A stretch of DNA of 64,000 nt, taken from Nocardioides currus. GTDB lineage: Bacteria; Actinomycetota; Actinomycetes; Propionibacteriales; Nocardioidaceae. Positions 27,031 to 33,528 of the stretch are shown one piece after another. The stretch's first letter is position 1, and every line of letters starts with the position of its first letter. A program made the translations under genes and the position numbers. Under the pieces are notes generated by a model. It worked only from the letters and a program-made list of their open reading frames with translations. It had not been told where the DNA came from and did not search any database. The stretch is from the NCBI RefSeq assembly GCF_003057875.1, contig NZ_PYXZ01000001.1, positions 124,001 to 188,000 of the forward strand. Reading direction: 5' to 3'.

Positions 27031-29643
27031 TCAGGAGCGCACGAACAGCGCGAACTTCCGCGAGGTGCGCTGGTGGGCGTCGTCGCCGGCGATCGTCACC
27101 TTCAGGGTGCGCCGTCCGGCCCTGGCCAGCTCGGGCACCCGGACGACGAGCCGCCCGTCGGCCTTGAGGACCGCCTTCAGCGAGCCGTCGTACCCGCCGA
27201 TGCGGACCACGACGTCACCACCGGGTCCGCCGGCGGTGGTCGCGACCCGGAGGACGACCGTGCCCCGACGGCCCGTCGACACGACGAGCTTGCCCTTACC
27301 TGCCTTGGCGATCGTCACGCTGCCCACGGCCGGAGCCGAGGTCGGGGCCGAGGTCGGGGCCGCCGTCGGGGCCGTCGTGGGGGTGGGCGTCGGCGTGGGC
27401 GTCGGCGTGGGGATCGGCGTGGGGGTCGGGGTGGGCGTCGGCGGGACCTCGCACGGGATCGTGCCCGAGCGCAGCGAGTGCCCGTCGGTGTCGCCGTCGT
27501 CGCTCCACACGACCTCCTTGCTGCCCGCGCCGCAGGTCGACTGCGGCGCGATCGCGAAGCCCTCGTTGTTCAGGTTGGGCATCCCCACCGGGCGGTCGAA
27601 GGCCTGTGCGACCCGGAACGCCCCGGCGTCGTCGAGCTCCATCGTCACGGTGACGCCGTCGCAGCTGTCGTCACACACGGCCCACAGGCGCTGCTGCTCC
27701 GGGTCCCAGCTGACGTCCATGGCGCCCTTCGGGCCGGCGTTCGTGGTCAGCTCCGGGTCGAGCGTGGCGACGAGGTGTGCCGTCTCCTGCACGGCGGCGG
27801 TCTGGTCGAGCGCCACGACGTGGAGCAGCCCGGTGCCCTCGACGGCGACGACGTAGAGGCCGGTGCCGTGGTGCGGATAGGTCGCCGGGTCGTACGCCGC
27901 GCCGGTGGCCTGGTCGACGAACCCGCCCGCGGTGAGGGCGTTGTCCGGGATCCAGGTGATGCCCTCGAGACCGAGGTTGGCGCCCACGGTGGGCAGCAGC
28001 GCGTTGAGCGACCACTCGTCGGTGGCACTGATCGGGCCGCCACCGGTCGAGGTGCCCGGCTCGTAGCGCAACACGGCGTTCCTGCTGACCCCGCTGACGG
28101 AGTTGTCGCGCTCGGTGGCGAGGTAGACCGCGCCGTCGGGGCCGATCGTGATGCCCTCGGAGTCGGGCGCCCCGGTGCCGTCCGCGTAGCGCGGGTCCCT
28201 GCCACCCGCCCAGCCGCTCGCGGGCACCCACGCGCTGCCGCTCTTCGTCATCTTCCACAGCGTGCCGGCCTTGTTCTGCGCGACCCACAGCGTGGTCGGG
28301 TCGGTCGGGTCGAAGACCACGCCGCTGGCGTCCTGGTTGAAGGTCGCCGCGTCGTCGGAGACCTGGACGGTCTGCGAGCCCGGCCACGGCGCCCGGTCGA
28401 GGCCGGGACACTGGTTGGCGGCGCCGCGGGTGAGGGCGGCGGTCGCGATGAACGCGCCGACCCCGTCCTTGCACCGGCCGTAGGACGGGACACCGTGGGT
28501 GGTCCAGGCGAACGAGTCGATCAGCTTCGCGGTCGGGTCGAAGAGGCGTACGGCGTCCGAGCCTCCGAGCCCGGCGGCCAGGGCGTCGACCACGAGGTGG
28601 CCGTGGGCGGGCACGACGCTGGGGCTGGGCAGGGTCGTCGGGTTGGTGTCCCCGCTGTCCTTGACCACCCAGCCGGCGACGTCGATGTCGGTGCCCGAGA
28701 GGTTGACGAGCTCGACCCAGTCGGGGTTGGGGTCGGAGACGACCTCGTTGAGACGGATCGGGCTGCAGGCGTTGGCGGCACCGCGGGTCGCGACGGTGGT
28801 CTCCTGCCAGGCGCCCGTGCCGTCGGGGCAGCGACCCAGCGTCGTACCGGCGTGGCCCCCCGACGACGCGTGCTCGTCGACCTTCGTCGTCCCGTCGGCG
28901 AGGTAGAGCGTCACGGTGTCGTCGACCCCGAGGCCGAAGCCGGGCGGCGGGAACTCGGTGTAGGTCGCGTAGAACCCGCCCGGGGCGATCACCGTGTTGG
29001 CGGGGATCGTGACGAACGGGTTGCTCGCGCCGGCGTCCTTGAGCCTCCATCCGGAGACGTCGGCCGGGGTGCTGCCCGTGTTGGTGAGCTCGACCCAGTC
29101 GGCGACCGCGTCACCGTTGGACTCGATCTCGTTGAGCCGGACGCTGCTCGGGTCGAACCCACTGGGGCAGGCGTTCGCGGCGGCCTTGGTGGCCGACACG
29201 GTGGCGACGAAGTCACCCGTGCCGTCGGCGCAGCGCCCGTACGTCGTCGTCGCGTGGGTCGTCCAGGAGTAGGAGTCGACGAGGGTGGTGCCGTCGGCGG
29301 CGAAGACGCGCGCGGAGTCGGCGCCGCCGAGGCCGAAGCCACCCACGACGCCCGGGCCCTCGGTGTGGATCGCGAGGTGTCCGCCGGGCGCGACGACGGA
29401 GCCGGCCGGGAAGGTGAGGGTCCGGCTGTCGTCGCTGTCCTTGACGACGAAGCCGGAGACGTCCGCCGCGGTCGATCCGGTGTTGGTGACCTCGATCCAG
29501 TCCGCGACCGGGTCACCGTTGGACTCGACCTCGTTGATCCTCACGTCGGTCACGGCGTCGGCAAGGGCCGACGTCGCCGTGAGCGTGGTGAGGGTGACGG
29601 CGGCGAGGGCTCCCGCCAGGGCACAACGAAGCGCAACGCGCAT
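27031..29643 (-). CDS. Secreted protein with three lamin-tail domains and a beta-propeller
   Basis: An 870-residue protein. A signal peptide (about residues 1-28, ending TATSALADA) is followed by three lamin-tail (LTD) domains at roughly 30-150, 165-290 and 295-405, each starting VRINEVESNGDPVADWIEVT or a variant. A beta-propeller/esterase-like-phytase region (about 420-720) has LEGITWIPDNALTAGGFVDQ and NLNNEGFAIAP. A Pro/Thr/Ala linker covers about 735-768, and the end is an Ig-like beta domain. No sortase motif is seen, so it is secreted or cell-wall associated. LTD plus SdiA-regulated/phytase-like proteins are known in actinobacteria; activity needs testing. GGAG precedes the ATG. Confidence 0.88.
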   Translation of the reverse strand: MRVALRCALAGALAAVTLTTLTATSALADAVTDVRINEVESNGDPVADWIEVTNTGSTAADVSGFVVKDSDDSRTLTFPAGSVVAPGGHLAIHTEGPGVVGGFGLGGADSARVFAADGTTLVDSYSWTTHATTTYGRCADGTGDFVATVSATKAAANACPSGFDPSSVRLNEIESNGDAVADWVELTNTGSTPADVSGWRLKDAGASNPFVTIPANTVIAPGGFYATYTEFPPPGFGLGVDDTVTLYLADGTTKVDEHASSGGHAGTTLGRCPDGTGAWQETTVATRGAANACSPIRLNEVVSDPNPDWVELVNLSGTDIDVAGWVVKDSGDTNPTTLPSPSVVPAHGHLVVDALAAGLGGSDAVRLFDPTAKLIDSFAWTTHGVPSYGRCKDGVGAFIATAALTRGAANQCPGLDRAPWPGSQTVQVSDDAATFNQDASGVVFDPTDPTTLWVAQNKAGTLWKMTKSGSAWVPASGWAGGRDPRYADGTGAPDSEGITIGPDGAVYLATERDNSVSGVSRNAVLRYEPGTSTGGGPISATDEWSLNALLPTVGANLGLEGITWIPDNALTAGGFVDQATGAAYDPATYPHHGTGLYVVAVEGTGLLHVVALDQTAAVQETAHLVATLDPELTTNAGPKGAMDVSWDPEQQRLWAVCDDSCDGVTVTMELDDAGAFRVAQAFDRPVGMPNLNNEGFAIAPQSTCGAGSKEVVWSDDGDTDGHSLRSGTIPCEVPPTPTPTPTPIPTPTPTPTPTPTTAPTAAPTSAPTSAPAVGSVTIAKAGKGKLVVSTGRRGTVVLRVATTAGGPGGDVVVRIGGYDGSLKAVLKADGRLVVRVPELARAGRRTLKVTIAGDDAHQRTSRKFALFVRS
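27331..27443 (-). repeat. Low-complexity PT/AP linker repeat
   Basis: A GC-rich microrepeat (units of GTGGGCGTCGGC on the plus strand) encodes Pro-Thr and then Ala-Pro-Thr-Ser runs inside the lamin-tail protein. It is a coding spacer, not a CRISPR or regulatory repeat, and is a likely site of length variation. Confidence 0.85.
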
Positions 29644-29778: not shown

Positions 29779-29852
29779 TGCCCCCGGTGGGGGTCGAACC
29801 CACACTGTGCGGTTTTTAAGACCGCTTCCTCTGCCGATTGGGATACGGGGGC
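29779..29852 (-). tRNA. tRNA, anticodon UAA (Leu by codon), with a short variable region
   Basis: A 74-base cloverleaf on the minus strand. The acceptor stem GCCCCCG/CGGGGGC is perfect with discriminator A. The anticodon stem is GCGGT/ACCGC with loop CTTAAAA, giving anticodon UAA; the T arm is GTGGG/CCCAC with loop TTCGACC. The D arm TCC...GGA has the loop AATCGGCAGA, as in Leu/Ser tRNAs. The variable region is only five bases (ACAGT), whereas bacterial tRNA-Leu normally has a long arm. No CCA is encoded. It lies 16 bp after the ppx stop, probably on the same transcript. Confidence 0.85.
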
Positions 29853-29868: not shown

Positions 29869-30783
29869 CTACGCGGTCCGCAGGGACCAGGCGATGCCCT
29901 CGAGGATGTCGGACTCGCTGACCAGCAGCTCGTCGACGGTGGTGCGCCGCAGCACCCGCGAGGCGATCAGCGCACCGGCGTCGATGACGTCGGCGCGGCC
30001 CGGGTGCATGTAGCCCAGGGCGAGGCGCTCGGCGACGGTCATCGCGACCAGCCGGTCGACGTGGGAGTGCACGTCCGCGTGGGTGTGCACGGAGCGGTCG
30101 ATCGCCTCGGGGTCGTACGCCGCCAGGTCGAGCACCCCGGCCGCGAGCGTGGTCATGGTGCCGGCGATCCCGACCACCGTGGCCGCGGCGGCGAGGTCGA
30201 CCCCGCTCGCGTCGAGCTGGTCGTCGATGTCGCGGACGACGGCCTCGATCTCCTCCCGGGTCGCCGGGTCGTGGCGCACGTGGCGCTCGTGGAGGCGCAC
30301 CGAGCCGACGTCCATCGAGCGGGCCGCCACGACGCCGGCGTCGTCGCCCAGCACCACCTCGGTCGAGCCACCGCCGATGTCGACGACCAGGATCGGGCGC
30401 GCCGCCTCGTCGGGGACGTTGCTCATCGCGCCAGCGAAGGCGACGGCGGCCTCCTCGTCGCCGCTGAGCACCTCGGGCTCGACCCCGAGCCGGGCCAGCA
30501 CGCCGGCCCGGAACTGCGCCGCGTTGTCGGCGTCGCGCGTGGCCGAGGTGGCGCAGAACCTGATCGTCTCGACGTCGTGCTGCGAGATCAGCGCGGCGTA
30601 CGTGTCGATCGCGGCGAAGGCGCGCTCCAAGGCCTCGTCGGCGAGCCGGCCGGTCGCGTCCACCCCCTGCCCGAGCCTGACCATGCTCGACTCACGCACG
30701 AGCACCTCGAGGCCGGCGTCGGTGTGCTCGCCGATGAGGAGCTTGATGGTGTTGGTGCCGCAGTCGACGGCGGCTACACGCAC
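29869..30783 (-). CDS. ppx: Exopolyphosphatase/Ppx-GppA family phosphatase
   Basis: A 304-residue protein of the ASKHA fold. It opens with RVAAVDCGTNTIKLLI (phosphate 1 loop) and has LVVDIGGGSTEVVLGD (phosphate 2 loop); the middle has FCATSATRDADN. It is the short actinobacterial Ppx-like type lacking extra C-terminal domains. It hydrolyses polyphosphate or possibly pppGpp. The GTG at 30783 overlaps the DUF501 gene by 10 bp. A tRNA follows closely. Assignment of polyphosphate over ppGpp substrate is by family. Confidence 0.9.
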   Translation of the reverse strand: MRVAAVDCGTNTIKLLIGEHTDAGLEVLVRESSMVRLGQGVDATGRLADEALERAFAAIDTYAALISQHDVETIRFCATSATRDADNAAQFRAGVLARLGVEPEVLSGDEEAAVAFAGAMSNVPDEAARPILVVDIGGGSTEVVLGDDAGVVAARSMDVGSVRLHERHVRHDPATREEIEAVVRDIDDQLDASGVDLAAAATVVGIAGTMTTLAAGVLDLAAYDPEAIDRSVHTHADVHSHVDRLVAMTVAERLALGYMHPGRADVIDAGALIASRVLRRTTVDELLVSESDILEGIAWSLRTA

Positions 30784-31268
30784 GGGCCCGGCTCCCACCA
30801 CTCGCCCAGCAGGTCGAGGACCTCGTCGCCGAGCGGGTTGACGCCGCGGCCCATCGCCAGCGACTGCCCGGCCAGCACGTGCAGACACTTGACCCGGTCG
30901 GGCATGCCTCCGGCGGAGATGCCCTCGATCTCCGGGACGTCGTGGCCCGACTCGGTCGCCAGGGCGCCGCGGAAGGCGAGGTAGGACTCGTGCGCCGCGG
31001 CGTACGCCGCGGCGAGCTCGGGGTCCTCACCGAGCCGGTCCTGCATCTCCTTCATCAGGCCGGAGCCCTCCAGGGTCCCGATCCTCGAGGCCGCGCGCGG
31101 GCAGGTGAGGTAGAAGGTCGTCGGGAACGGCGTGCCGTTGGGCAGCCGAGGCTCCGTGGTGACGACGTCGGGGTTGCCGCACGGGCAACGGTGGCCGACG
31201 GCGTGGATGGCGCGGGGCTCGCGGCCGAGCTGCGCGGCGATGGCTGCTTCGTCGTTCGGGTCGATCAC
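30774..31268 (-). CDS. DUF501 domain protein
   Basis: A 164-residue protein. The hallmark CPCGNPDVVTTEPRLPNGTP with PFPTTFYLTCPRA contains Cys residues probably binding metal, and GGMPDRVKCLHVLAGQSLA is the C-terminal signature with an additional Cys and His. DUF501 proteins are of unknown function and almost always sit between a DivIC/FtsB-like gene and ppx in actinobacteria, as here. It overlaps ppx by 10 bp. Confidence 0.92.
   Translation of the reverse strand: MIDPNDEAAIAAQLGREPRAIHAVGHRCPCGNPDVVTTEPRLPNGTPFPTTFYLTCPRAASRIGTLEGSGLMKEMQDRLGEDPELAAAYAAAHESYLAFRGALATESGHDVPEIEGISAGGMPDRVKCLHVLAGQSLAMGRGVNPLGDEVLDLLGEWWEPGPCV

Positions 31269-32217: not shown

Positions 32218-33528
<1,311 letters not shown>

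Follow-up and report, generated by a model that had tools for sequence, protein, structure and literature searches.

A gene of 74 nt on the minus strand of the window (the whole 64 000-nucleotide stretch of Nocardioides currus DNA that was analyzed) is very probably an ordinary tRNA-Leu(UAA), the only one in its genome, with a class-I-like fold, charged with leucine by the single LeuRS and decoding the rare codon UUA. Charging, expression and decoding in N. currus are predictions from the sequence. The first-pass annotation had described a tRNA with perfect stems, the anticodon UAA, a leucine-type D arm and a variable region of five bases, all of which is borne out by Aragorn, by the Rfam tRNA model (RF00005) and by the sequence itself; its coordinates were also right, with the gene running from 29852 to 29779. 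Aragorn calls tRNA-Leu(taa) at 29779-29852, and RF00005 matches exactly the same interval with a score of 56 bits (cut-off 29; E 1.1e-10). As read from the sequence, the tRNA is complete and all 20 stem pairs (7+3+5+5) are Watson-Crick, and with a folding z-score of -2.7 it is stabler than its shuffles. The first half of the minus-strand sequence is GCCCCCG TA TCC CAATCGGCAGA GGA A GCGGT CTTAAAA and the second half is ACCGC ACAGT GTGGG TTCGACC CCCAC CGGGGGC A. The CCA end is not encoded; CCT comes next.

The anticodon UAA (positions 34-36; 29816-29818, minus strand) lies in the loop CUUAAAA and is given alike by the sequence, Aragorn and RF00005. The D arm (29827-29843, minus strand) has the stem UCC/GGA and the loop CAAUCGGCAGA; with C13 it carries A14, A15, G18, G19 and A20a, which make the loop one of the leucine-tRNA type. 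Its D-stem pair is C12-G23, where long-arm leucine tRNAs instead have G12-C23. The variable region ACAGU (29804-29808, minus strand) has no long arm and, at 5 nt, falls below the 10 nt or more that define class II. Together with A73 (the discriminator, at 29779 on the minus strand) and C12-G23 with C13, it places the tRNA in a short-arm type with variable regions of 5-8 nt. Among 116 distinct ungapped short-arm host sequences homologous to this tRNA, ACAGT is the most frequent variable region, A73 is present in all 116, and so is U48, which is able to make the A15-U48 pair. An Allo-tRNA, defined by 12 acceptor-branch pairs split 8/4 or 9/3 (PMC7609411), is ruled out, as the split here is 7/5.

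We screened the genome (4.53 Mb, 99.98% complete) with RF00005 and found 45 tRNAs, with this UAA tRNA single among them. A check for further UAA tRNAs, which the first-pass annotation had proposed, found no second and no long-arm UAA tRNA among the 45. The other four leucine tRNAs (CAA, CAG, GAG and UAG) are 82-87 nt as called and all long-armed. The observation that UUA is nearly absent holds: there is no TTA in the 43 called genes of the window, and only nine in 218,064 codons of 580 called genes, compared with 10,105 CTG. These counts cover 864 kb, about a fifth of the genome, and come from a simple ORF caller based on GC3, which overlooks genes of low GC content. Five of the nine TTA codons occur no later than codon 21 of the called ORF, and mis-called starts may account for them. 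The sole UAA tRNA is still needed for those few UUA codons, and would possibly also read UUG by wobble, alongside the long-arm CAA tRNA.

A very rare UUA and a single UAA tRNA would also suit a regulatory tRNA like bldA, whose supply controls a few switch genes in which UUA has been kept. The Streptomyces bldA tRNA-Leu(UAA) shares the anticodon, the rarity of UUA and a GC-rich actinobacterial host with the tRNA studied here, but bldA is a long-arm class II tRNA, whereas the N. currus tRNA is short-armed and shows no regulatory pattern in the 864 kb sampled, where no developmental set of TTA genes was seen. The TTA codons found are in epimerase-type and unnamed genes or possibly in mis-called starts. 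The same tRNA is moreover fixed in free users of UUA such as IMCC26103, a complete low-GC actinobacterium with 3,024 TTA codons in 400 kb, which argues that its basic job is decoding. A bldA-like role is not needed for the UAA tRNA, and we consider it unlikely.

The amino acid that the tRNA carries is a separate matter, because a non-leucine synthetase might charge it and UUA might then stand for another amino acid, or be ambiguous, in these bacteria; the long arm that marks bacterial tRNA-Leu as class II is absent, and so few UUA codons occur here that reassigning them would cost little. In Escherichia coli, LeuRS uses A73, A15-U48, G18G19, A20a and the D-loop/T-loop contacts, with A73 as the main recognition base (PMC9976931). 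The sequence and folding of the long arm of E. coli tRNA-Leu are uncorrelated with leucylation, and variants that lack the arm are still active, while SerRS depends on a long arm (PMC9976931), a point against non-leucine charging. The leucine recognition set taken from that work (A73, A14, A15-U48, G18G19, A20a) is present in full in the UAA tRNA, and every published E. coli tRNA-Leu recognition element is invariant in the 116 short-arm host sequences. In the same sequences, 99.4% of stem cells are paired, compared with 35-54% in slid controls, and both-side changes are seen in 16 of the 20 pairs. The paired percentage is the stronger figure, since slid controls already reach 9-14 on the both-side count. 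This genome has one LeuRS above the family cut-off and no further paralogue above it that could serve as a second LeuRS for the short-arm tRNA; one LeuRS was likewise found in IMCC26103 and in another Nocardioidaceae genome, G093. The UAA tRNA would therefore combine a class-I-like fold, with its five-base variable loop, with the retained A73, A14, A15-U48, G18G19, A20a and D-loop/T-loop contacts, and this conserved recognition set suggests that the single LeuRS charges it with leucine.

IMCC26103 also allows the meaning of UUA to be compared across genes. In this genome, UUA is read by two short-arm UAA tRNAs alone and UUG by a short-arm CAA tRNA (loci L490, L491 and L492), and among the leucine tRNAs the long arm occurs only in GAG and UAG. 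In 59 alignable gene pairs between IMCC26103 and N. currus, 62.4% of 532 aligned TTA codons face leucine, as do 65.5% of TTG and 59.6-70.0% of CTT, CTC, CTA and CTG, while ATT faces isoleucine in only 37.5%. In pairs with at least 45% identity, 254 of 385 TTA codons face CTC or CTG of N. currus. UUA in IMCC26103 thus faces leucine as often as do the CUN codons, whose readers are long-armed, which indicates that it means leucine where only short-arm tRNAs read it, and recoding of UUA is rejected on this alignment. By homology, UUA would be leucine in N. currus as well; for decoding, the anticodon UAA comes from this genome and the alignment of UUA with leucine from IMCC26103, none of the nine TTA codons found here being in an alignable gene pair. 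A comparison of one TTA-bearing epimerase with the PDB was ambiguous at the TTA codon, and the codon comparison for G093 had five usable UUG codons and one usable CUA codon, too few to judge by. With the invariant leucine elements, the UUA codons aligned with leucine and one LeuRS, the earlier suggestion that the tRNA is charged with another amino acid finds no support, and we regard non-leucine charging as very improbable.

The ordinary tRNA-Leu(UAA) that we favor has a constant genomic place. It is preceded on the same strand by a gene (29869-30888, minus strand) for a presumed Ppx/GppA-type phosphatase, with a stop codon 16 nt before the tRNA. The gene order leading to the tRNA is eno, ftsB-like, DUF501-like, ppx, tRNA, in which the enolase (ORF at 32218-33495, minus strand), ftsB-like and DUF501-like products are presumed as well. 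The first-pass annotation had proposed comparing the ppx-proximal tRNA across relatives, and in every homologous locus with ppx included (59 of 59) the tRNA follows that gene on the same strand, at distances from 12 nt to about 5 kb. This constancy argues for descent within the actinobacteria, not for recent insertion here. Several Microbacteriaceae loci that carry the short-arm tRNA also have homologues of enolase and/or DUF501. The tRNA likely shares a transcript with the ppx-type gene or has a promoter inside it; a scan found no promoter or terminator consensus near the tRNA, which means little in a GC-rich actinobacterium. Directly downstream of the tRNA, at 27031-29643 on the minus strand, lies a gene whose long product looks secreted; its repeated segments are lamin-tail-like by eye, and its C-terminal part resembles an esterase or phytase. 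A pseudogene is ruled out by the perfect stems, the conservation and the constant position after ppx. A functionless phage tRNA, either decayed or newly inserted, is the least credible reading of the gene, with hardly any probability, as the shape is common in phages and tRNA arrays but the stems here are perfect, the tRNA is the sole UAA reader and its same-strand place after ppx recurs in all 59 loci.

The short-arm form is widespread among relatives. By BLAST, 181 of 198 Nocardioidaceae genomes have a match, some of the matches being a CAA paralogue, and a pattern that accepts any arm length gives candidates in 130 of 130 good Nocardioidaceae genomes, with the UAA tRNAs short-armed among the matches listed. 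A73, A14, A15 and U48 are present in all of 65 Nocardioidaceae short-arm tRNAs. In a class-wide sample of 247 genomes, the UAA tRNA was matched in its short form in 136 and in its long form in about 20; about 90 fit neither pattern, Streptomyces-sized genomes among them, so that these frequencies are lower bounds for both forms. The short UAA form is the one found in most actinobacterial genomes that could be typed. A scan of named genomes found it in at least 119 contigs, mostly of actinobacteria, including Gordonia, Nocardia, Rhodococcus, Mycobacterium, Corynebacterium, Dietzia, Tsukamurella, Microbacterium, Arthrobacter, Amycolatopsis, Pseudonocardia, Streptosporangium, Cellulomonas, Trueperella and others. 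In the rest of the phylum, short and long UAA forms occur in blocks, and in Cyanobacteria the long form prevails and the short form is occasional. In one family of the class, which also has long-arm members, some UAA leucine tRNAs have a variable region of intermediate length, 7-8 nt (loci L100-L104). Pseudonocardia endophytica has a second UAA tRNA with an odd fold and a poor D arm (L246:3900-3971), about 3.4 kb from its normal short-arm copy, which is perhaps a decaying copy. The peculiarity that the first-pass annotation had implied for this tRNA was therefore mistaken, as the form is lineage-wide; a family of such tRNAs in relatives, which it had named as counting against its reading, does exist, and we infer that this family is leucine-charged. 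Within its clade the short-arm tRNA is ordinary; set beside what textbooks state, it is a mild surprise.

Among distinct sequences with good stems, found with a search pattern that left the signature positions free, 189 of 202 short host tRNAs have A9, C12-G23 and C13, and 12 more have G9 instead, while the four long host tRNAs in the same set have G12-C23, G9 and mostly G13. Position 23 agrees with this signature, with few exceptions, in the matches listed for the class, the rest of the phylum and Cyanobacteria. The different D-arm core indicates that deleting the arm from the local long form would not by itself give the short form. The signature could reflect a separate lineage or a shared structural compensation, both of which are possible readings of 74 bases that do not decide between them.

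The short-arm shape is also found in viral sequences, in at least 119 contigs, with 119 confirmed by Aragorn; the scan targeted the short form, so its proportion among viral contigs is no measure of frequency. These viral tRNAs share the five-base variable region, C12-G23 and A73 with the host tRNA. Similar tRNAs are labelled tRNA-Leu in annotated phages of Mycobacterium, Gordonia, Erwinia, Pseudomonas, Bacillus and cyanobacteria; the tRNA-Leu(UAA) of mycobacteriophages (Bonray, Colt and others) has 82% identity over 74 nt to the one studied here, and those of the Erwinia phage phiEa21-4 group and Cyanophage P-RSM6 resemble it as well. The phage tRNAs are accessory copies, whereas the UAA tRNA of N. 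currus is its host's only UAA reader. Outside the actinobacteria, the short-arm form is in some cases part of a tRNA array (Flavobacteriaceae L191, Chloroflexaceae L172 and Planctomycetaceae L237), and in the Flavobacteriaceae genome it occurs beside a normal long-arm UAA tRNA. Next to it in the L191 array is a UAG leucine tRNA whose spacing suggests a short arm too, and L184 is a further array with a short-arm leucine tRNA outside the usual actinobacterial site. Of the earlier proposal that this is a leucine tRNA that lost its long arm, the leucine tRNA without a long arm stands, but the loss is not borne out, given the different D-arm core and the form's frequency in phages.

Several Nocardioidaceae have a second short-arm tRNA with the anticodon CAA and up to 89% identity to the UAA tRNA (loci L254-L259, L261-L263, L265, L266, L268, L269 and L271). 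No long-arm CAA tRNA was matched in the Nocardioidaceae genomes that carry it, which looks like an anticodon change followed by replacement of the long-arm CAA tRNA. G093 additionally has a tRNA-Leu(UAG) that is short-armed, shares this type of D arm and has its CCA encoded (L501:50-126), so that three of its five leucine isoacceptors are short-armed; in N. currus, by contrast, the CAA and UAG tRNAs are still long-armed. The short-arm CAA and UAG tRNAs suggest stepwise replacement of a leucine tRNA set. We tentatively propose, as a possibility that we hold to be less probable than not, that short-arm leucine tRNAs belong to a single mobile lineage that is associated with phages and has a D-arm core of its own (C12-G23 with C13). 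In the ancestors of most Actinomycetia this lineage would have replaced the long-arm tRNA-Leu(UAA) native to them, and changes of anticodon would later have carried it to other leucine codons. If so, one LeuRS would serve both shapes, with three of five isoacceptors class-I-like in some genomes such as G093 and all UUA/UUG readers class-I-like in IMCC26103.

Comparable tRNAs have been described in part. In the passages of PMC11541572 that concern them, only tRNA-Leu-2, -3 and -5 of Mycobacterium tuberculosis are credited with a long variable loop, which would leave two of its five tRNA-Leu apparently without one, like the UAA tRNA here; those passages do not discuss the short tRNA-Leu, their anticodons or their charging. 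The named Mycobacterium genomes that we searched have the short UAA form, like N. currus. In the Mycobacterium mucogenicum clade, also actinobacterial, a tRNA cluster includes a tRNA-Leu(UAG) with a short variable loop, but it is an extra copy with another anticodon in hosts that keep their long-arm UAG tRNA (PMC6582537). Mitochondrial tRNA-Leu(UUR) likewise reads UUR without a long arm and is charged via A73 and A14 (PMC9976931), but it is mitochondrial, has a weak anticodon branch in human and has an independent history. A search of open-licence papers found none that describes the short UAA form as such; it is implicit in annotation and in print.

Textbooks and tRNA-sequencing tools define bacterial tRNA-Leu as class II (e.g. 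the rules in PMC6297222). The UUA reader of a major bacterial class breaks this rule, so class-based pipelines would misfile the short-arm tRNA-Leu(UAA). The short-arm form would be a natural, large-scale confirmation that the long arm is dispensable for LeuRS.
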